Virus record (IMG/VR): IMGVR_UViG_3300030106_001611
Span: 1-53,319 of that record
Length of the DNA: 53,319 nt
Reading direction: 5' to 3' (one strand)
From: a virus
Part shown: positions 17,815-50,574 of the stretch, in pieces
Position numbering within the stretch: position 1 is the stretch's first letter
Layout of the letters: every line of letters begins with the position of its first letter
Translations under genes and position numbers: made by a program
The notes under the pieces: model-generated
What the model was told of the DNA's origin: nothing
The model's input: only the letters and a program-made list of their open reading frames with translations
Databases searched by the model: none

Positions 17815-18450
17815 ATGTTATTACAACTACTATCCGAACAAGAAGTACAATATTGCGTAGAAAACTGGGGCACTAAAGAGGATGGTGCGAAGACACAGCC
17901 TCTGTCAGACAGTGAAGATTTAAAAAAGAACACAGAGTCGCCTGACATGACACCCGAAGTAAGGCAACTCGTATCAACAAGAATATACAGCAACCCTTAC
18001 ATAGACTCAGTAGTTTGTCCAAACAAAGTATCGGTAAACTTTTACAATGAGTATGAAGAGGGGGGCTTCTACAAAAAGCATATAGATACGTTTCGTGCCG
18101 CACCTAGAAGCAACAACGTCTACTTTGATTACGGGTTTTCATTAGGTCTTAGTGACGATTACGAGGGTGGGGAGTTTGTTCTAAATAACGATGTGGGTGA
18201 AATAAACTACACAATTGGAAAGGGACAACTACTTATATTCCCGATTATATACCCTCACGGGGTAAAGCCGATAACAAAAGGTTCGCGTAAAGCAATCATA
18301 GGTTGGATGTCAAGCAACGTTTCTTACGAACAAAGCTACATACTAAAGAACTTGTTTGAAATAAACGCAAGCTTTTTAAAAGAAGAAAACCCGATGGCTC
18401 TCAAGTCAACATTGGTACAAAATTATTTAGCTAAACATTGGGGTAAATAA
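17815..18450 (+). CDS. 2-oxoglutarate/Fe(II)-dependent oxygenase
   Basis: The gene encodes 211 residues with the prolyl-4-hydroxylase/PiuC-type layout. The iron ligands are HID (H89 and D91 in FYKKHIDTF) and H148 in YPHGV, with R158 in TKGSRKAIIGW binding the 2-oxoglutarate carboxylate. GLSDDYEGGEFVL is the usual strand before the distal site. The enzyme should couple 2-oxoglutarate decarboxylation to hydroxylation of a protein or small molecule; the substrate is unknown. Such genes are frequent in marine phages. A GGGAG ribosome site and its own promoter precede it. TAATG links it to the next small gene. Confidence 0.85.
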   Translation: MLLQLLSEQEVQYCVENWGTKEDGAKTQPLSDSEDLKKNTESPDMTPEVRQLVSTRIYSNPYIDSVVCPNKVSVNFYNEYEEGGFYKKHIDTFRAAPRSNNVYFDYGFSLGLSDDYEGGEFVLNNDVGEINYTIGKGQLLIFPIIYPHGVKPITKGSRKAIIGWMSSNVSYEQSYILKNLFEINASFLKEENPMALKSTLVQNYLAKHWGK

Positions 18451-18629
18451 TGGCACCTAGAAAAAAAGCTACACCAAAAAAGAAATCAAAAAGCCCTACG
18501 CCAAAAAACAAGGCACTTTACGCACGAGTAAAGGCAGAGGCTAAACGTAAGTTTGACGTGTACCCAAGCGCATATGCAAATGCTTGGCTAGTTAAAACCT
18601 ACAAGAAACGTGGCGGGACGTATGCCTAA
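18450..18629 (+). CDS. Small basic protein, DUF5872-like
   Basis: The gene encodes 59 residues, so it is easily missed. ATG at 18450 overlaps the oxygenase stop (TAATG) and its own stop overlaps the next ATG in the same way. The N-terminus is lysine-rich (MAPRKKATPKKKSKSP). The C-terminal half, ARVKAEAKRKFDVYPSAYAN followed by KTYKKRGGTY, matches the small 'VYPSAYA...YKKRGG' proteins I recall from marine phages and link to DUF5872-type sequences. The strong positive charge suggests DNA or RNA binding. No function is known. Confidence 0.7.
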   Translation: MAPRKKATPKKKSKSPTPKNKALYARVKAEAKRKFDVYPSAYANAWLVKTYKKRGGTYA

Positions 18630-18883
18630 TGGCTAAACCAAAAGGTGGCTTAACTAAATGGTTCAAGGAAGATTGGCGGGATGTAAAGACTGGCAAGAAA
18701 TGCGGTCGCTCTGGTTCAGAGAAAAAGAAACGTCCTTATCCGGCCTGTAGACCCGCTAAAGTTGCTGGACGTATAAGTAAGAAAGAAGCGGCTAAAAAAA
18801 CAGGACCGCGCAAAGTAAAATGGTCTGTCACTGCTTCAGGAAGAAAAAGAAGTAGTGGACGAAAGTCAAAATCCAAGGCATAA
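18629..18883 (+). CDS. Small basic protein, DUF5872-like
   Basis: The gene encodes 84 residues starting MAKPKGGLTKWFKEDWRDV, then CGRSGSEKKKRPYPACRP and a lysine/serine-rich tail. The GGLTKWFKE start with the YPxC motif is typical of DUF5872-type proteins of marine phages and their hosts. The charge suggests nucleic-acid binding. It is translationally coupled to the preceding gene (TAATG). Together with the genes at 18450, 19572 and 19931 it forms a group of very basic small proteins. Confidence 0.7.
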   Translation: MAKPKGGLTKWFKEDWRDVKTGKKCGRSGSEKKKRPYPACRPAKVAGRISKKEAAKKTGPRKVKWSVTASGRKRSSGRKSKSKA

Positions 18884-18904: not shown

Positions 18905-19570
18905 ATGAATTATATTACAAGTAACATACCTTATTTTAAAGCTTGGGTACGTAGAGAATATACCACGAATTTTGACCGTTATCAAGGTGAATTTCTTCAC
19001 GCAATGGTGATAGCCGTCACCACACTACCCATGAAAACTCTGTCTTTTCAGGTTATGTTTACCGGATGTGAGGACGAAGAGAATAATGTACATGGTGGGG
19101 CTATGTGGGCACGGATGCCTCTAACGGCTCTTGTAGGTGACACACCCTTTGAAGAGTGGCCTACACCAATGCCAACCTACTTGGCTCAACCGTGGGATTG
19201 TCAATCACACCATCATTCGGTGTTTGTTTTGAATAGAGCTACTCCCTGCCCGTGGTTGGCTAAGATAGACGGGGAGTTCTACCCAGCAAAATACTACTTC
19301 ACAATCGACTATACAGATACAGAAGTAGCAGATGACCCAGCCCAACACAAACAAAGCCACGTGTTAGAATTGATGGATGCTGGTGAGTGGACAGGCAACA
19401 TAGTTGCACTGCCAAACAACAGAGTAAGGGTCACGAACCCTGCTTGGTTTGTAACGGGCGATGGCCCACCGGACTTCACTCCTAGTCAGTGGGTTCACCA
19501 TTCTAAACAAGACCCGAACTATGTAGAGGATACAGCGCGGGTATTTGATAATCTATACGCGGAGAAGTAA
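18905..19570 (+). CDS. Conserved late protein, unknown function
   Basis: The gene encodes 221 residues. AAAGGAGATG precedes ATG at 18905. The protein is rich in aromatic residues, histidine and proline: TTNFDRYQGEFLHAM, VHGGAMWARMPLTALVGD, PWDCQSHHHSVFVLNR and GDGPPDFTPSQWVHHSKQDP. It has the feel of a compact beta-rich enzyme or virion protein. I recall relatives in marine podoviruses but no function. It lies among the basic proteins and before the lysis genes. Confidence 0.65.
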   Translation: MNYITSNIPYFKAWVRREYTTNFDRYQGEFLHAMVIAVTTLPMKTLSFQVMFTGCEDEENNVHGGAMWARMPLTALVGDTPFEEWPTPMPTYLAQPWDCQSHHHSVFVLNRATPCPWLAKIDGEFYPAKYYFTIDYTDTEVADDPAQHKQSHVLELMDAGEWTGNIVALPNNRVRVTNPAWFVTGDGPPDFTPSQWVHHSKQDPNYVEDTARVFDNLYAEK

Positions 19571-19571
19571 A

Positions 19572-19931
19572 ATGGCAGAAGGTAAAGAAAAAGCTCTGAT
19601 GGGTATGAACGATGCAGCCCGAAATAGGATTGCTCGTGCTATGAAGAAAGCAGCAAAAGACGCTGCCCCTAGCGGAACAAGACTTAGTGACCAAGACATA
19701 ATGAATGCGCTAAAAGCTTTAGGACAAAATAAAGCTACAGGCGGCAAAATCAAAAAGGCTAAAGGCATGAAGCGTGGCGGCAAAATGAAAGCCAAAGGCA
19801 TGGCTAGAGGCGGCGCGGCTAAAAAAATGGCTAACGGTGGAAAGGCCATGATGAGAAAATCAAAGGGCATGAAGCGTGGCGGCAAAATGAAAGCTAAAGG
19901 CATGGCGCGTGGTGGTAAGGCAAAACGCTAA
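19572..19931 (+). CDS. Repetitive Lys/Gly/Met-rich basic protein
   Basis: The gene encodes 119 residues. ATG at 19572 is chosen over an in-frame start at 19545 inside the preceding gene. The N-terminal 55 residues are helical (NDAARNRIARAMKKAAKDAA; SDQDIMNALKALGQNKAT). The C-terminal half is a low-complexity repeat of KGMKRGGKMKAKGMARGG, present twice and encoded by a 40-bp DNA repeat. The charge and repeats recall histone-like tails, so binding to nucleic acid is likely. TAATG couples it to the next basic protein. Confidence 0.7.
   Translation: MAEGKEKALMGMNDAARNRIARAMKKAAKDAAPSGTRLSDQDIMNALKALGQNKATGGKIKKAKGMKRGGKMKAKGMARGGAAKKMANGGKAMMRKSKGMKRGGKMKAKGMARGGKAKR
19764..19905 (+). repeat. 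Two 40-bp direct repeats inside the basic protein gene
   Basis: The 40 bases at 19764-19803 recur at 19866-19905 with one silent change (GCC to GCT). The two copies are 102 bp apart, in frame, and duplicate the peptide GMKRGGKMKAKGM. The near-identity at DNA level suggests a recent duplication or homogenisation, and the repeat could expand or contract by recombination. Confidence 0.85.
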
Positions 19932-20215
19932 TGGCTCGTAAAGCCGATAAGATGCCAGCCCGTAACAAAAAGAACTTTCGTCCAACGAAAGCAGGGGCTG
20001 GTATGACTAAAGCTGGGGTTGCTGCGTATCGTCGCAAAAACCCCGGTTCTAAACTCAAGACTGCCGTAACAGGCAAAGTAAAGCCGGGAAGCAAAGATGC
20101 CAAGCGTCGTAAGTCTTTCTGTGCTCGTTCTGCTGGGCAGATGAAAAAGTTTCCTAAAGCAGCAAAGAATCCTAATAGTCGTTTGCGCCAAGCACGAAAG
20201 AGGTGGAAATGCTAA
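19931..20215 (+). CDS. Small basic protein, DUF6321-like
   Basis: The gene encodes 94 residues. Its pattern AGAGMTKAGVAAYRRKNPGS, KLKTAVTGKVKPGSKDAKRR, KSFCARSAGQM and RQARKRWKC matches small proteins I recall as DUF6321 from marine phages. It has one or two cysteines and many basic residues, suggesting nucleic-acid or metal binding. The role is unknown. It overlaps the holin gene start by 7 bases. Confidence 0.7.
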   Translation: MARKADKMPARNKKNFRPTKAGAGMTKAGVAAYRRKNPGSKLKTAVTGKVKPGSKDAKRRKSFCARSAGQMKKFPKAAKNPNSRLRQARKRWKC

Positions 20216-20804: not shown

Positions 20805-20995
20805 ACGTAATCATCTGGTCATTAGTGTTGACTATATGCACCGCTGATGGTAAATGTTTTAATCAAACGGTACAGTGGTTCGATAAAGAAAACGAATGTC
20901 TACGATACAAACAAATATATGAGGACATTCCAAAAGATGGCTCTTGGGCATCTGTCGAATACAAGTGCGGAATTATAGGGGCTATGGAAATATGA
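20801..20995 (+). CDS. Small cysteine protein with hydrophobic N-terminus
   Basis: The gene encodes 64 residues. It has a hydrophobic start (MNVIIWSLVLTICTA), then C19, C33 in NEC and C56 in VEYKC. The layout matches the proteins at 5405-5605 and 23390-23596: signal-like start, ExC, 23-25 residues, then an aromatic residue, any residue and C. It sits between two lysis genes and overlaps both in ATGA. It may be an exported spanin-like or envelope factor, but there is no lipobox or clear spanin signature. Confidence 0.65.
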   Translation: MNVIIWSLVLTICTADGKCFNQTVQWFDKENECLRYKQIYEDIPKDGSWASVEYKCGIIGAMEI

Positions 20996-21477
20996 AGTAC
21001 AATACCTCGCATTTTTTAGATAAACTTATTGAACATGAAGGCATGGTTCTAACGGTATACCAAGATACCCTTGGCATAGACACTATAGGTATAGGTCGTA
21101 ACTTAAAAGACAGAGGTATTAGTAAAGAAGAATTAGACTATATGGATATACCCAGTATAGATGTGATATATGAGCATGGTATAACAGAGGCTGATGCAAG
21201 ATACCTCGCCATGAATGACATTAAAATTGTAGAAAACGAACTTTGTAAAGTCCACCCGTGCGTAGAAGAATTAGATGCGGTTCGTCAACTTATAGTTATG
21301 GACATGGCCTTCAACATGGGAGTTCCCCGCCTCTGTAAATTTAAGAAAATGTGGGCTGCAATAAAAGAACAAAAGTTTGAATCTGCAAGTCTTGAGATGA
21401 TGGATTCGCGTTGGGCACGTCAGGTGGGCCGACGAGCGAGTATACTTTCAGATGCTATGAAAGCAGGGGAATTTTAA
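20992..21477 (+). CDS. Lysozyme (endolysin), T4 lysozyme family GH24
   Basis: The gene encodes 161 residues. ATG at 20992 overlaps the preceding stop in ATGA, and a longer frame from 20944 is rejected for that reason. The catalytic triad spacing is that of T4 lysozyme: E16 (IEHEG), D25 (VYQDTLG) and T31 (DTIGIGRN), i.e. E-x8-D-x5-T. The C-terminal part shows LIVMDMAFNMGVPRLCKFKK and DSRWARQVGRRA, the family core helices. It cleaves the N-acetylmuramic acid to N-acetylglucosamine bond of peptidoglycan. No signal peptide is present, so release depends on the holin. Confidence 0.9.
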   Translation: MKYNTSHFLDKLIEHEGMVLTVYQDTLGIDTIGIGRNLKDRGISKEELDYMDIPSIDVIYEHGITEADARYLAMNDIKIVENELCKVHPCVEELDAVRQLIVMDMAFNMGVPRLCKFKKMWAAIKEQKFESASLEMMDSRWARQVGRRASILSDAMKAGEF

Positions 21478-21723: not shown

Positions 21724-21915
21724 ATGGCTTTATCATCAAAAATACTACTGTTTTGCATAGTGCTTGGTGATTCGCCTGATAGGTGGGACATGGAAGCAGA
21801 GGTTGTTCAAGAACACGAGTGGATGTCAAGTTGCCATGTAGCAATAACTGAGAACGGGTTCAAAAACCCTAATGATGTTTGTTTTTGTGTTGAAACAGAA
21901 AGTATTAGACGCTAA
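21724..21915 (+). CDS. Small cysteine protein, possibly exported
   Basis: The gene encodes 63 residues. It has a hydrophobic start (SSKILLFCIVLG), then an acidic middle with C37 and a C-terminal VCFCVETE. It is similar in layout, though less exactly, to the small cysteine proteins at 5405, 20801 and 23390. Its stop overlaps the oxygenase start (TAATG), so the two are co-translated. Function unknown. Confidence 0.6.
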   Translation: MALSSKILLFCIVLGDSPDRWDMEAEVVQEHEWMSSCHVAITENGFKNPNDVCFCVETESIRR

Positions 21916-22997
21916 TGCCACCACGCAATCATAAAGACTGGATTAAGAAACCTAAAGTTGAACATGTTAACTCTTTAATTTATTCTGATTACGGTCTGTA
22001 CGTGCAAGAGTTAGAGAATATCTTTTCTAAAGTTTGGGTGCCTATGTGTCACATCAGTGAGATGCGAAACAAGGGAGACTTTAGAACAACACGCATTGCA
22101 GACAAAAGAGTTATTGCAATCAACATTGATGGTGAACATGTTCAAGCTTATTATAATACTAACGATATTGACCATCGTAAACCTGCTGGAACTATTACCT
22201 ATGATTTTGCTACCGTAGAAAAACCCTTACATTGTGAAGTAAAACATGGCGGTATGGTCTGGGTAACACTAGACCCTAATCCAACGCAGAGTGTAGAAGA
22301 GTGGACGTGCGGCGCATTTGATTGCATTGCAGATGCCATTGACGCAGAAGAACTGGAAGTATTTCACTATCACAAAGCTGTCATAGACACAAACTACAAA
22401 TTATGGCACGATACTAATTCAGAGTTCTATCACGACTTTATGCACTACTTTAATCGTGTTTCAGGATTTAATGATGAGTATTTCGCTAGAAAGAATATTC
22501 CTTTTGATAATGGTCATGTTAACGTCAGCAGCTTCACTGTTAACTATGAAGAGTATGACGGATTTGAAGATAGGGGGGAGTTATCTTTTCCCAATCTGCC
22601 GCCCAACCAGTGGTACATGGTTGACTTATTCCCCGGTTACAACTTTAACCTACGTGGCAGTGCCTATCGCAGTGACAGTGTAACACCACTAGGACCAAAC
22701 AAAGTATTGATTGAGTTCCGTGGTTACGGTTTGCGTAGGGACACAGAAGAAGAAAGACAGACTCGTATCAAGCATCATAACTCCATATGGGGTCCGTTCG
22801 GTCGCAACCTGCACGAAGACCTGATTGGTGTCACAGGCCAAGGTACAACAATGCGAGAGGGTACCGAACCGCGAAACATTTTACACGGACGACACGAAAA
22901 CAGTACAATCCACGATGAAGTAGGTATGCGTCACTACTACAACGAGTGGTCTGAGTGGATGCAGGTAGATGCAAGCAATCCAAAAATAGCGGCTTAA
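21915..22997 (+). CDS. Ring-hydroxylating-oxygenase-like protein lacking the Rieske cluster
   Basis: The gene encodes 360 residues. The N-terminal region aligns in order with the alpha subunit of Rieske oxygenases (IFSKVWVPMCHISEMRNKGDF; then VIAINIDGEHVQAYYNT). However, the CxH...CxxH motif is absent: after YYNTNDIDHRKP the chain passes straight to the last Rieske strand (GGMVWVTLDPNP). The catalytic domain keeps NYKLWHDTNSEFYHDFMH, with E170 at the usual bridging-acid place, H173 and H177. The His spacing is Hx3H rather than the usual Hx4H. D302 follows in HEDLIGVTGQG. It belongs with the gene called methanesulfonate monooxygenase in HMO-2011-type phages, but without the cluster it cannot receive electrons normally. 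It lies amid lysis and membrane genes. Confidence 0.8.
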   Translation: MPPRNHKDWIKKPKVEHVNSLIYSDYGLYVQELENIFSKVWVPMCHISEMRNKGDFRTTRIADKRVIAINIDGEHVQAYYNTNDIDHRKPAGTITYDFATVEKPLHCEVKHGGMVWVTLDPNPTQSVEEWTCGAFDCIADAIDAEELEVFHYHKAVIDTNYKLWHDTNSEFYHDFMHYFNRVSGFNDEYFARKNIPFDNGHVNVSSFTVNYEEYDGFEDRGELSFPNLPPNQWYMVDLFPGYNFNLRGSAYRSDSVTPLGPNKVLIEFRGYGLRRDTEEERQTRIKHHNSIWGPFGRNLHEDLIGVTGQGTTMREGTEPRNILHGRHENSTIHDEVGMRHYYNEWSEWMQVDASNPKIAA

Positions 22998-22998
22998 A

Positions 22999-23397
22999 AT
23001 GCCAACGAGAGTTAATGAAAATACGGAAGTTGCGTTACCACTACGTAACATAATAGGCATGGTTGCTGCTGCTTCTATAGCAACTTGGGCATACTTCGGT
23101 ATTATAGAAAGACTAAATCAGATAGAAACTAACATCACCATGATGGAATCTGATTTAGCACAGAATACAGAGTTTCGTATAAAGTGGCCTCGTGGCGAGA
23201 TGGGCAGTTTACCAGCGGACAGTGAGCAATTTATGCTTATTGAACATTTGGCTAGTGAACTAGAAAAACTGCAGACAGACATAGAAGGTGGTAAAGCTCC
23301 ATACGACCAGCAGCAGAAACTAACGCTGGAGTTTTATGAAAAGCGCATTACGAGCCTAGAAGAAAATATAGAGAAGCTGCGGAACGGCGATGATTGA
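22999..23397 (+). CDS. Membrane-anchored coiled-coil protein
   Basis: The gene encodes 132 residues. A polar N-terminus is followed by one membrane helix (residues 17-36, NIIGMVAAASIATWAYFGII). The remainder is helical and charged, with a likely coiled coil (SEQFMLIEHLASELEKLQTD; YEKRITSLEENIEKLR). I recall similar proteins (LPLRN-helix-WAYFGIIERLN) in marine podoviruses. The topology, an inner-membrane anchor with a periplasmic coil, resembles an i-spanin, but this is not proven. It lies 1 base after the oxygenase gene. Confidence 0.65.
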   Translation: MPTRVNENTEVALPLRNIIGMVAAASIATWAYFGIIERLNQIETNITMMESDLAQNTEFRIKWPRGEMGSLPADSEQFMLIEHLASELEKLQTDIEGGKAPYDQQQKLTLEFYEKRITSLEENIEKLRNGDD

Positions 23398-43163: not shown

Positions 43164-43331
43164 TTACTCTCTATGGTCTTCATGTTCATGGTTGGGATAA
43201 TAAACCTCAACCCACGACTTACATTTTGGACACTCCAAACAACTAAGTATAGTGTATCGGTTATCCGTAAGTTCGTCTGCATCATGGTCTGCAGACCACC
43301 TTAACTCTGTATTACAGTGCCAACAATTCAT
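43164..43331 (-). CDS. Small zinc-finger protein (55 residues)
   Basis: ATG at 43331 overlaps the RNR stop in ATGA. The product begins MNCWHCNTELRWSADHD and later has LSCLECPKCKSWVEVYYPNH. The cysteines C3, C6 and a later C-x2-C-x2-C cluster should hold one zinc. The ending is histidine- and acid-rich. Small proteins of this type are frequent in phage nucleotide-metabolism operons, with unknown function. Its short length makes it easy to miss. Confidence 0.7.
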   Translation of the reverse strand: MNCWHCNTELRWSADHDADELTDNRYTILSCLECPKCKSWVEVYYPNHEHEDHRE

Positions 43332-45277
43332 GCCGCATTCAAATCCACTACTTCACAAACACCTGCCGTGCAAGCCAGTTCCCTTGAACCCGTAGTATTA
43401 TCTTCTTTTTCGAAATCTGTCAACTTATTCCATTCGATGTTGACGTGTTTGTACATCTGTTCCCACTCAAGGTAGTCATCAGGTTCTATATCCTGATAGG
43501 GTGCTTGCTGATATGTATGGTCACTATGAGGCAGGAATGATACACCAGAAGCTACATCAAAGTTCTTATATACCCATGCACCAACTTCCATCCACTCGTG
43601 CTCCTTCACAGTCACCGTAATAGATGGCTTGTGTTCACACCAGTGTATAGCGTAGGTCTTCCATAACTCTAACTGCTCAATAGCCGTCATCTTAGTTCGT
43701 GTAACGGCACCTTTAGGTGACTTCATAGGAAAGCTGAACACAGTAACACTGTCAGGCTTCCCCATGTCACGTTCATTGTAAACACCCTCTTCAATCAAGA
43801 ATTGTGTCAGCGGGTCTTTGTTATCTCCGCGAACGGTTCTGATAAAGTAATCGTTGTGCCGTGCATGTATCCCGCTTGCTGCGTCCACCAGTTGAGACAC
43901 AGTACCCGACGGCTTTACACAAGTGATTGCAGTGCTCTGCGGGATTCCAAGCATGTTCGCAAACTTCAGATTTGTGTCCACTGCTGTTTGCCGCATCTCT
44001 TCTAGCCAACGCTTGCTGTCTATATTTTTGGATAAAACGGGATGGTCCATGATACCAGTTAAGGATACGCCTAACAAACGCTCTTCCTCTGTGTTGTCTT
44101 TCCATATCTTCCTCAAATACTTGAAGTCAGTCAAAGTAGATTGAAGGGTTCCAAGAATTGTAGCCACACGAACTTTACGATTCAAGTCATCCAAACTGTC
44201 TGATTCACGAACCACTACCTCTGACAAGTTACAGAATTGGTAACCCCGCAGGATAATTTCTGAACACGGGTTGGTTCCCCACATATATCCTGTCTCACGT
44301 CGCCCGTTACGAGCTACCTGCTTATCTGCAGCCTCACGATTAAAGATGCCACGCTCACCAGACTTACTGTCGTAGAGAGCAAGCCATTCACGCATGAACG
44401 TACCCATCTCTGGCTTATTCTTGTAGGCAACAGAGTTGTTCGCCAAAGCACGTTGACCATTACGGTATATCTGTTTGTCGGGTTCATCCCACCACTCGCC
44501 AGCTTTAGCGTGACGCATCTGGTCATCATTAAGATTAGACAGACTAATGAGTGCGCTGCGACGAACGCCCCCTACGACCACTACCTCGCCCACCTTACAC
44601 ATAAGGTCGTGACATTCAATGGGAAATAGTCTACGTCCGGCGGCTTTCTTAAAAATCTGAACTGTAAAGTTAAACAAATCTATCAAAGGTTGTGGACCGC
44701 TAGCTCTTCCACCCATGACTTTCAAACGAGAGCCAGAAGGTCTAATTGCAGACATATCCCACTTAGGAACCTGTCCAGCGTACAGTAATGCTATCAGTTC
44801 GCGAAATGATTTTGCCCATCCCGGCTTACTATCAGCTACCGTTATAACTATGTCAGAATCCCCAAAATTGTCAGAAATAACAGGAAGTCTATCAACATTC
44901 TCTCTCTCCACACTAAACCCTACACCCGTGCCGCACATCAAAATATACATGCACTCATCAAACGCACGAGGACTATCTACAGGTATATAACTACAGTTGT
45001 AACCACAGATGTTATCACGAGCAAGAGCCGGACCAGAAGTCATCATTGCTCTCATACTAGGCATAACTTGCAAACTCAAAATAGAATCTTGAATCTCCTT
45101 AACTGTACCGTCTTGCAACTTTACGTTGTGCTTCATAAGCACGTGGTCCTGCATAAACCGAATGTAACGGTCCACCGTCTCATCCCAGTTTTCTCTGCGA
45201 CCTTCTTCGTCTATCCAACGAGCGTATCTTGATTTGTGAATGAACTGTTGATACACGGTAGGTAGTAGGTTGTTCAT
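43328..45277 (-). CDS. nrdJ: Class II ribonucleotide reductase (adenosylcobalamin-dependent)
   Basis: The gene encodes 649 residues, of the monomeric RTPR type. It reduces ribonucleotides to deoxyribonucleotides using a cobalamin-generated thiyl radical. The active-site loop is TNPCSEIILRGYQFCNLSEV: C338 is the radical cysteine, E340 the catalytic acid and C349 one redox cysteine; its partner is C95 in CGYNCSYIP. VKPSGTVSQLVDAASGIHAR is the conserved phosphate-binding loop. ACTAGVCEVV at the C-terminus supplies the swinging cysteine pair. No small subunit is needed. Its place beside a nucleotide-kinase homologue shows a dNTP supply module that depends on host B12. Confidence 0.93.
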   Translation of the reverse strand: MNNLLPTVYQQFIHKSRYARWIDEEGRRENWDETVDRYIRFMQDHVLMKHNVKLQDGTVKEIQDSILSLQVMPSMRAMMTSGPALARDNICGYNCSYIPVDSPRAFDECMYILMCGTGVGFSVERENVDRLPVISDNFGDSDIVITVADSKPGWAKSFRELIALLYAGQVPKWDMSAIRPSGSRLKVMGGRASGPQPLIDLFNFTVQIFKKAAGRRLFPIECHDLMCKVGEVVVVGGVRRSALISLSNLNDDQMRHAKAGEWWDEPDKQIYRNGQRALANNSVAYKNKPEMGTFMREWLALYDSKSGERGIFNREAADKQVARNGRRETGYMWGTNPCSEIILRGYQFCNLSEVVVRESDSLDDLNRKVRVATILGTLQSTLTDFKYLRKIWKDNTEEERLLGVSLTGIMDHPVLSKNIDSKRWLEEMRQTAVDTNLKFANMLGIPQSTAITCVKPSGTVSQLVDAASGIHARHNDYFIRTVRGDNKDPLTQFLIEEGVYNERDMGKPDSVTVFSFPMKSPKGAVTRTKMTAIEQLELWKTYAIHWCEHKPSITVTVKEHEWMEVGAWVYKNFDVASGVSFLPHSDHTYQQAPYQDIEPDDYLEWEQMYKHVNIEWNKLTDFEKEDNTTGSRELACTAGVCEVVDLNAA

Positions 45278-48485: not shown

Positions 48486-50030
48486 TTATACAGTAAGCAC
48501 TTCTTCCAAGTCAAGCCAATTTTTACCTATTTTTAATTCTATTCCAATTGGCATGTCATATTCCACACCATAACGGTTTTGAGTCTCTGTGGGTAGAGAC
48601 AGCATAGCATCTGATAAAAGATTGATACAAGCGTCTTTTTCATCAGGGTGAACATCTAGTACAATCGAATCATGCACAGTGTTGCAGATTACGGAATTTA
48701 ATTTTCTCCGACGCATCATCTTCTCTAAACGAACCAGAGCCATTGGCAGTAGGTCTGCGGTTGCAAACCCCTGAACTGGGTAGTTACATATAGCCGTCCT
48801 GTCAGTAGCAGTACCCCACTCTGTCCATCTAGCTTTAGGAAAAGCATACTGTCTGCCAGAAGGCAGTTGTATATACTTCTTAATCACTGCATCTTTTTGC
48901 AACCGCTCGTGCCACTTTGTAACCTGATTATACTTTTCTTTGAAAGCATTGTAATAACGCTTCTGGTCTTCCGTGCCAGACACGCCGCCATAGAGTGGTT
49001 TGAACGTATGCGCTTTGGCATCTTGCCGCGAACATCCGATAATACTGGCAGTATAGTTGTGAACATCTGTACCCTCTTCTACATCTTTACGTATAGCATC
49101 GTCACCTGCAAGAAACCCAGCAACCCGAAACTCTAGTTGTGAGTAGTCCCCTTCAAGTATGAAACCCCCCTCGAACCTACTTTCAACAGCCTTTCGTATA
49201 ATGAAGGTAGAGCCTCGTGGCATATTCTGAAAGTTAGGATTGCGAGACGAAAGACGACCCGTCGCCGTAACACACTGCATAAATTCTGTGTGGATGAAGC
49301 CCTCTGCGTCCATGTTGTTTTCCATACCCTCAACAAACGAACGAAGATAAGTTCGAACCGCACTATATCTGATGTAGGCTTCCGCAAACTCACGAGCTTC
49401 TCCTCTCAATGACGTGAACATACTTTCTAGCGTTTCTTTATCTGTCTTAAATCCTGCAGCCGCCACGTCATAAGGGTCGCGGGGAATTAGTTTGAAGCCT
49501 GCAACTTGATTGCTAGGTATATAGAGCACACCAGCCCCCTGACAGGTCTTACAGATTCGAATAGCCTTACCTAGTGTCCCGTCCTTCTTACGCGCTGTGT
49601 AGCGTCCTACGCCGCCGCAATTAGTGCACTGACTACCTTTGGTCTTATAAAGAACTTCAGTCTCATTGACAACGGTTCGTCGAAAGTCCGCACGACTCAT
49701 GCGGGTTCGTCTCTTGGGTTTCTTTCCTGCACCACGAATCTCATGCCCTAAATTAAATATGCCAGCCCACCTGTTTTTGCTGTGCACTTTGCAAGAATAG
49801 AATAGTTTGGAGCGGTCATCCGGGCTATCTAGGTTGATAGGGGTGTCTCCCATAGCTTCAGCAGCCAACCCATTTAGTCGTCGTTCCAAAGTAAATAGTT
49901 CATCTTCATACTCTCGCCGTATATCAGCAAGGGTCTGCTTATTTATCTTGATACCATCCCGTTCAATACGGGACAGGACATCAACCATTTCAAGTGATAG
50001 TCTTAATGTCGGTAGCAAAGTCCGCTGCAT
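48486..50030 (-). CDS. Family-A DNA polymerase, polymerase domain with DnaJ-type zinc finger
   Basis: The gene encodes 514 residues from ATG at 50030 (MQRTLLPTLRLSLEMVDVLS). Motif A is DYSQLEFR (295-302), motif B RQDAK...FKPLYGG (335-349) with Phe at the E. coli 762 position, and motif C VHDS (452-455). Between residues 130 and 170, in the thumb region after INLDSPDDRSKLFY, lie CTNCGGVG and CKTCQGAG (C135, C138, C160, C163), a half DnaJ central domain that should bind zinc. A finger of this kind is the hallmark I recall for HMO-2011. The 3'-5' exonuclease domain is encoded by a separate overlapping gene in another frame. It replicates the phage genome with the helicase and primase. Confidence 0.92.
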   Translation of the reverse strand: MQRTLLPTLRLSLEMVDVLSRIERDGIKINKQTLADIRREYEDELFTLERRLNGLAAEAMGDTPINLDSPDDRSKLFYSCKVHSKNRWAGIFNLGHEIRGAGKKPKRRTRMSRADFRRTVVNETEVLYKTKGSQCTNCGGVGRYTARKKDGTLGKAIRICKTCQGAGVLYIPSNQVAGFKLIPRDPYDVAAAGFKTDKETLESMFTSLRGEAREFAEAYIRYSAVRTYLRSFVEGMENNMDAEGFIHTEFMQCVTATGRLSSRNPNFQNMPRGSTFIIRKAVESRFEGGFILEGDYSQLEFRVAGFLAGDDAIRKDVEEGTDVHNYTASIIGCSRQDAKAHTFKPLYGGVSGTEDQKRYYNAFKEKYNQVTKWHERLQKDAVIKKYIQLPSGRQYAFPKARWTEWGTATDRTAICNYPVQGFATADLLPMALVRLEKMMRRRKLNSVICNTVHDSIVLDVHPDEKDACINLLSDAMLSLPTETQNRYGVEYDMPIGIELKIGKNWLDLEEVLTV

Positions 50031-50574
50031 TGTGTAATTCCTCAAATGTAGTGCCAAAGGCGTGAAGCTGCTTACATGCAATTTGTTCAGTAGCAAGCAC
50101 GTCAGCCCGTCCATACTCGTCTACTATTCCCCACGGTATGTCGTAGAATGTCTTCCCCTCTTTAAGATACGGCGCAACGAGGTCCTTCTCCTTTTTGGTA
50201 ACGTCATACTTTTCTGCAAGAGCAGCAAGTCCAAGAGGCCAACGCTGCGCTTTGGATAAAACATATTCAGCCACCATCGTATCGTAGACATCACCATCAT
50301 AAACAAATCCACACTCCCGTATCCAAGATAAATCAAACTTTATGTTTTGTCCCACGACCATATCAGCTTCGTCAAGTGCAGATTGAAATAGCTCAAAAGC
50401 AAAGTCGTGAGGCTGTTTCTCAGAATGATAATAGCAATGGTACATAATCGTATTCATGTGCAACCACTTGTAACCTATTGAAACTAAAGAGTTTCCAAAG
50501 TATGGCAAAGCGGTTGTCGAACCATTAGGCTTATGTTTGTGGGTAGTTTCCACATCAAAGGTAAGTACGTTCAT
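49990..50574 (-). CDS. 3'-5' exonuclease (DnaQ-like) part of split DNA polymerase
   Basis: The gene encodes 194 residues. ATG at 50574 overlaps the helicase stop in ATGA. All DEDDy residues are visible: LTFDVETTHK (D and E of ExoI), VVGQNIKFDLSWI (ExoII) and EYGRADVL (YxxxD, ExoIII). The sequence stops at EELHNAADFATDIKTIT, exactly where family-A enzymes pass into the polymerase thumb. The polymerase gene begins 41 bases upstream of this stop in the +1 frame. It therefore supplies proofreading either as a separate subunit or through a frameshifted fusion. Confidence 0.85.
   Translation of the reverse strand: MNVLTFDVETTHKHKPNGSTTALPYFGNSLVSIGYKWLHMNTIMYHCYYHSEKQPHDFAFELFQSALDEADMVVGQNIKFDLSWIRECGFVYDGDVYDTMVAEYVLSKAQRWPLGLAALAEKYDVTKKEKDLVAPYLKEGKTFYDIPWGIVDEYGRADVLATEQIACKQLHAFGTTFEELHNAADFATDIKTIT

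Follow-up and report, generated by a model that had tools for sequence, protein, structure and literature searches.

In CntA, the metal sites lie 44 Å apart within a monomer and 12 Å apart across the subunit interface, which is crossed via the bridging residue E205 (PMC7948474). Given these inter-subunit distances, a chain that holds only the iron can work beside a chain that holds only the cluster. In the caffeine N7-demethylase NdmCDE, NdmC is devoid of a Rieske cluster and uses the cluster on the reductase NdmD, the Rieske domain having been separated from the oxygenase and joined to the reductase (PMC4408171). True MsmA proteins carry both the catalytic domain PF00848 and the Rieske domain PF00355 in Pfam searches, and their cluster motif CPHRG...TCMFH has a 26-residue spacer (CxH-X26-CxxH in 62 of 63 loci, L100-L162). 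The absence of the Rieske motif from the HMO-2011 protein, from many GOS and virome 'MsmA' sequences and from one of the two IMCC1322 proteins was noted in 2015 (PMC4433239). New compared with that observation are the complementary partner encoded by SAR116 and the pairing of the two; no earlier report of the complementary fusion, of strict pairing or of a split-enzyme idea for MsmA was found in the open-licence literature.

Here, we analyse a viral stretch of 53,319 nucleotides (IMG/VR record IMGVR_UViG_3300030106_001611, hereafter the window) that contains a gene whose product is an MsmA-type alpha subunit without CxH/CxxH ligands. The protein is a direct orthologue of HMO-2011 gp61, the 'methanesulfonate monooxygenase hydroxylase alpha subunit'. 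It resembles MsmA in its iron-site motifs, and the SAR116 version of the protein also in its operon context (sulfonate ABC transporter, MsmB-like protein, Rieske ferredoxin); unlike in MsmA, the Rieske hairpins are deleted and the cluster resides on a separate, reductase-fused protein. NdmCDE is a match in the way it works, but the lineage here is that of MsmA and not of an N-demethylase, and the catalytic half is carried by a phage. Moreover, the SAR116 Rieske half retains a decayed alpha-subunit catalytic domain together with an FAD reductase, and SAR116 has a beta subunit and a separate Rieske ferredoxin, while no GST-like NdmE was identified there. Likenesses to CntA are the alpha3 fold and a bridging glutamate in place of aspartate for inter-subunit transfer (PMC7948474), although CntA has its own Rieske cluster and shares only about 15% identity in a fold alignment.

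A Rieske-less oxygenase subunit in an HMO-2011-type phage

The sole Pfam domain in the window oxygenase is PF00848 (E 4.9e-8), and a Pfam search returned no match to the Rieske domain PF00355. Among cellular proteins that have a Rieske site, true MsmA comes closest (55-65% identity); relative to it, about 50-60 residues, including all four cluster ligands, are deleted. This agrees with the initial annotation, which had described an oxygenase homologue without Rieske ligands and a relative of the HMO-2011 'methanesulfonate monooxygenase'; identity to HMO-2011 gp61 (ADW08429), which is likewise without Rieske ligands, amounts to 74%. PDB sequence searches match the protein to RHO alpha subunits via the N-terminal scaffold, and an AlphaFold model (pLDDT 83.5, pTM 0.87, with 41 homologues as input) has the RHO alpha fold, with a TM-score of about 0.7 to TPADO, NagG and CntA. 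The PF00848 fold and the 2-His-1-carboxylate site expected of an RHO are both present.

The catalytic motifs of the MsmA type, TNSEFYHDxxHY and NLHEDL, are found in the window oxygenase, and the long-spacer Rieske motif CxH-X26-CxxH that marks MsmA is missing; the protein therefore derives from MsmA but, strictly speaking, is no MsmA. Aligned true MsmA sequences share the iron-site motifs TNSE-x2-H-x3-H and NLHED, so the spacing of the histidines is inherited. Hx3H, which had been considered unusual, is the normal arrangement throughout the MsmA family.

Table 1. The oxygenase gene, its parts and its lysis-type neighbours (positions are those of the window)
Feature	Position	Strand	Basis
Phage lysozyme, HMO-2011 gp56 homologue (65%)	20992..21477	+	homology
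Rieske-less MsmA-type oxygenase catalytic subunit, 360 aa, ATG start	21915..22997	+	ORF, PF00848 only
N-terminal remnant (former Rieske) domain, aa 1-132	21915..22310	+	alignment with RHO alpha Rieske scaffold flanking the deletion; beta strands in the model
Lost cluster-binding hairpin site, aa 82-105, variable in sequence and length	22158..22229	+	MsmA CxH/CxxH segment deleted
Catalytic domain, aa 133-345	22311..22949	+	dN/dS, entropy
E170, putative bridging acid (electron entry from the Rieske cluster of the neighbouring subunit)	22422..22424	+	invariant in viral copies and aligned MsmA; position of CntA E205 by family homology (PMC7948474)
H173, putative iron ligand	22431..22433	+	invariant in viral copies and aligned MsmA
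H177, putative iron ligand (Hx3H)	22443..22445	+	invariant in viral copies and aligned MsmA
D302, putative iron ligand	22818..22820	+	invariant in viral copies and aligned MsmA; aligned to the H-D-D-L motif of IadD 7yls
Small membrane/holin-like protein directly downstream of the oxygenase	22999..23397	+	phrog_20984, weak phrog_1296 holin

The phage in the window is of the HMO-2011 type, with 54% identity to HMO-2011 in the terminase, 48% in the portal, 39% in the coat protein and 65% in the lysozyme. A protein of the 2OG-Fe(II) oxygenase superfamily (PF13640; 17815-18450), the second iron oxygenase in this phage, is encoded near the structural genes. Several short basic proteins look DNA-binding or packaged: the product of 19545-19931 is very rich in Lys, Met and Gly and built of KxMARGGxxKKM repeat units, and others are encoded at 18450-18883 and 19931-20215. 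Further along the window are a ribonucleotide reductase similar to B12-dependent class II enzymes (43328-45277; phrog_367, PF21995) and a family A DNA polymerase (48486-50114) with an apparent zinc-ribbon/primase-like segment (weak PF08273) before the polymerase domain.

Homologues of the SAR116 gene products described below (the fusion reductase, MsmB, the ferredoxin and a 281-aa protein) are found neither in the window nor in 1.48 Mb surrounding viral oxygenase copies, and elsewhere in the window the Rieske motif occurs only as two chance CxH/CxxH strings. A dedicated scan of viral contigs recovered no complete fusion, its two matches being to the reductase domain only. Together, the scan and the 1.48 Mb argue against a phage-encoded partner.

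Selection and descent of the viral copies

The viral set that was read comprises 154 copies, corresponding to 114 distinct sequences plus that of the window (115 distinct). The initial annotation had framed the loss of the ligands as peculiar to a single gene, had asked whether all phage copies lack them, and had named an intact motif in close relatives, with evidence of an assembly error here, as a refutation. A CxH-Xn-CxxH motif, the set of ligands that an RHO holds within one chain, occurs in none of the 154 copies; the loss of Rieske ligands is a trait of the whole viral family and not of one gene. The non-haem iron site that had been proposed is intact throughout, since E170, H173, D174, H177 and D302 are invariant across the 115 distinct viral sequences. 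Median dN/dS among viral copies is 0.026 in residues 133-345 versus 0.42 in residues 63-108, where the hairpins used to be, and sequence entropy reaches 1.95 bits at positions 83-108 versus 0.15-0.31 in the catalytic domain. The invariant iron site and the low dN/dS of the catalytic part relative to the former hairpins indicate that the active site is under selection rather than in decay.

At least 597 stretches in IMG/VR match the oxygenase gene. Two types of phage carry it: judged by their flanks, 72 loci belong to HMO-2011-type podoviruses and 26 to large phages that encode nrdAB, with contigs in the set of up to 222 kb. HMO-2011-type isolates listed by their terminase comprise 11 roseobacter phages, several SAR11 phages and HMO-2011 itself (for their hosts, see also PMC9038755). 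Among the isolates listed, the oxygenase is present only in the SAR116 phage HMO-2011; with a single positive isolate, the link between the gene and SAR116 hosts is suggestive only.

Rieske-less forms, viral and cellular, form one clade against MsmA (support 100/100), so that one loss of the hairpins is sufficient. In a quick tree the cellular short forms fall within the viral diversity, and an arrangement with all viral copies in a single clade is equally likely (AU p 0.53). A Cys-Pro left over from the first pair of cluster ligands is found in 15/15 cellular copies examined and in 0/112 viral copies; a 'Rickettsiales' copy (L098) and a 'Hellea' copy (L096) were left out of the cellular set. 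The latter clusters with viral copies in the tree. The former lies on a contig of the MAG 'Rickettsiales bacterium SAT45' that carries nrdA/nrdB-like and tail-like genes and is identical to L203 from IMG/VR; the contig is that of a phage and contaminates the MAG.

The mirror-image fusion of SAR116

SAR116 genomes encode a Rieske-less short form of their own, 362-364 aa in length and 73-80% identical to the phage protein. The usual order of its gene cluster is sulfonate ABC transporter genes, a fusion protein of ~796 aa, an MsmB-like beta subunit that resembles ring-hydroxylating beta subunits, a Rieske ferredoxin, a 281-aa protein and the short subunit, beyond which lie lysR, a TauE-type exporter and one-carbon genes. 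Operon neighbours include an SsuA-type sulfonate ABC transporter, a TauE sulfite exporter and formate-THF ligase/FolD-type genes, the last two of which were named by eye from sequence. The 281-aa protein (6951-7793 in L089 and 12555-13385 in L195), which in SAR116 is encoded with the fusion, beta and ferredoxin genes, has no family match in Pfam or NCBIfam; by analogy it might be an assembly factor with a role comparable to that of NdmE.

The fusion contains PF00355 (E 7e-17) together with Pyr_redox_2 and Reductase_C, an FAD/NAD reductase part, and Pfam finds no recognisable PF00848 in it, whereas the short form has PF00848 only. The cluster motif CPHR[GA]...CMFH is intact in 14/14 fusions, and the iron ligands are gone in all 14. 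In most fusions the segment with these ligands has been deleted; two early-branching fusions (L195 and L097) keep the helix, with E170 replaced by Lys, H173 by Gln and the second His missing. Glu170 is always kept in the short form and, where alignable, is a Lys in these two fusions. Between genomes, identity within the fusion is 97% for the Rieske hairpins versus 40% for the dead catalytic part; within the SAR116 short form it is 95% for the catalytic part versus 79% for the former hairpins. As judged from these patterns of sequence conservation, selection in each of the two proteins guards the part that its partner has lost. In the tree, the fusions form a clade that falls within alphaproteobacterial MsmA. 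The predicted structure of the fusion is poor (pLDDT 64), too low for use.

Co-occurrence was assessed in 61 genomes of the family that holds the split form. The short form is encoded in 12 of them, 11 of which also encode the fusion, and the twelfth has fusion fragments at contig ends; neither gene is present in the remaining 49. The association is strong (Fisher p ~6e-13, phylogeny not corrected). A Rieske-bearing reductase is encoded near the cellular orthologue, in the same cluster and in co-occurrence with it. The arrangement varies in some genomes. In G004 and G005 the short gene lies ~12 kb from the fusion and not in the same operon, and the G005 fusion consists of two adjacent ORFs. 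G004 has two short copies and two fusions; the split system is found twice, on C16 and C45 (L197 and L198), each time with tauA/tauC and with the short gene ~12 kb off on the opposite side. Both the short form and the fusion are encoded on the single 2,753,527-bp contig of G029, which we take to be IMCC1322, the host of HMO-2011. Between them lie molybdopterin-oxidoreductase (dmsABC-like) genes, located at 7912-12502 of L195 between the Rieske ferredoxin and the 281-aa gene, an arrangement that links DMSO and methanesulfonate metabolism.

A proposed split enzyme and its alternatives

The geometry of CntA, the pattern of Glu170 and the precedent of NdmCDE lead us to propose a split MSA-type monooxygenase. 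SAR116 encodes the mirror image of the viral protein, a reductase fusion that retains the cluster but not the iron site, so virus and host probably contribute one half of the enzyme each. In our assessment the phage protein is likely to serve a split Rieske oxygenase as its catalytic subunit and to obtain electrons from the host Rieske-reductase fusion across the subunit interface. Of the three options in the initial annotation, oligomerisation with the host enzyme is favoured by the strict co-occurrence of this fusion with the short form in SAR116, the complex itself being one that we infer. In functional terms, the statement that the protein cannot accept electrons from a reductase is not supported, as another chain probably provides the Rieske relay.

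We infer the formation of the complex, the electron path, the substrate and the benefit to the phage as follows. The ancestral MsmA function in SAR116 would have been divided between a short iron subunit and a long fusion of Rieske domain, dead iron domain and FAD reductase. Electrons would flow from NADH to the FAD reductase domain, perhaps through the Rieske ferredoxin, and on to the Rieske cluster of the fusion, from which they would cross the subunit interface via the bridging Glu170 to the mononuclear iron of the short subunit; against this route, the retained Rieske ferredoxin could also be a direct electron donor. The short subunit would then oxygenate a small sulfonate, probably to formaldehyde and sulfite, with methanesulfonate as the substrate that we assume from homology and operon neighbours. 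In a SAR116 cell, the phage short subunit may join or replace the host short subunit on the host fusion, and would thereby complete, top up or replace the host activity. Phages encode single subunits of host complexes, and by analogy the benefit may consist in one-carbon units for nucleotide synthesis, in sulfur, or in sustained activity during infection; more speculatively, a fast-wearing catalytic part would be kept in supply, and formaldehyde-derived one-carbon units and sulfite would be gained. A further-reaching version, which we regard as doubtful, holds that the virus supplies the catalytic half of a two-polypeptide metalloenzyme, the electron-transfer half of which only the host has, and that in SAR116 a free catalytic subunit, possibly phage-borne, made the iron site of host MsmA dispensable, followed by its decay into the Rieske-reductase fusion.

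It is unlikely that, at least in some hosts, the phage subunit instead pairs with a complete host MsmA in mixed trimers, with the electrons coming from a full-length neighbour. Interface residues such as E170 are common to true MsmA, SAR116 MED-G04 (L122) encodes a complete MsmA along with an MsmB and a ferredoxin of its own, and HMO-2011 is the sole gene-carrying phage with a known host; however, none of the 61 genomes of the split-form family yielded a full-length MsmA at E<=1e-80, and the inferred host genome of HMO-2011, G029, has the fusion. We give little credence to a stand-alone mononuclear iron enzyme, in which the Rieske site would be unreplaced and electrons would come from a plain ferredoxin, a co-substrate or a small reductant. 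Although the phage genome encodes no Rieske partner and the region of the former hairpins varies freely, both of which fit such an enzyme, the bridging acid for inter-subunit transfer from a Rieske cluster, E170, is invariant, and wherever the assembly permits checking the cellular form is accompanied by a Rieske-bearing, iron-dead partner.

The position of the gene next to lysis genes, and the general knowledge that many phage homologues of host enzymes have been repurposed, are compatible with a non-catalytic protein, be it one that acts as a decoy or regulator and poisons the oxygenase of the host through unproductive complexes, or a structural or virion protein. This is very improbable in view of the (nearly) invariant iron ligands and catalytic domain, with a dN/dS of 0.026, and of the same architecture in the host's own operon. 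Finally, degeneration or misassembly of an ordinary Rieske oxygenase gene has next to no chance of being the explanation. It would fit the missing cluster ligands, which define such enzymes, and the internal stop in two viral copies (L033 and L045), but the ligands are lacking in every one of the 154 contigs, purifying selection is extreme and cellular orthologues have the same deletion. Assembly error or a pseudogene is thus ruled out by the concordance of the viral copies and by purifying selection.

Overall, the split-enzyme reading would explain an abundant marine phage gene that is annotated as methanesulfonate monooxygenase though incapable of being a complete one. It would represent a second, apparently independent case after NdmCDE in which a Rieske oxygenase is split, one half holding the cluster and the other the iron, with losses that match. 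Because one of the two sites is naturally dead in each half, inter-subunit electron transfer can be tested without mutants. The split enzyme predicts that the phage gene is of no use unless the host encodes the Rieske half, and would link the gene to SAR116 hosts and to the cycling of sulfonates and one-carbon compounds in the ocean.
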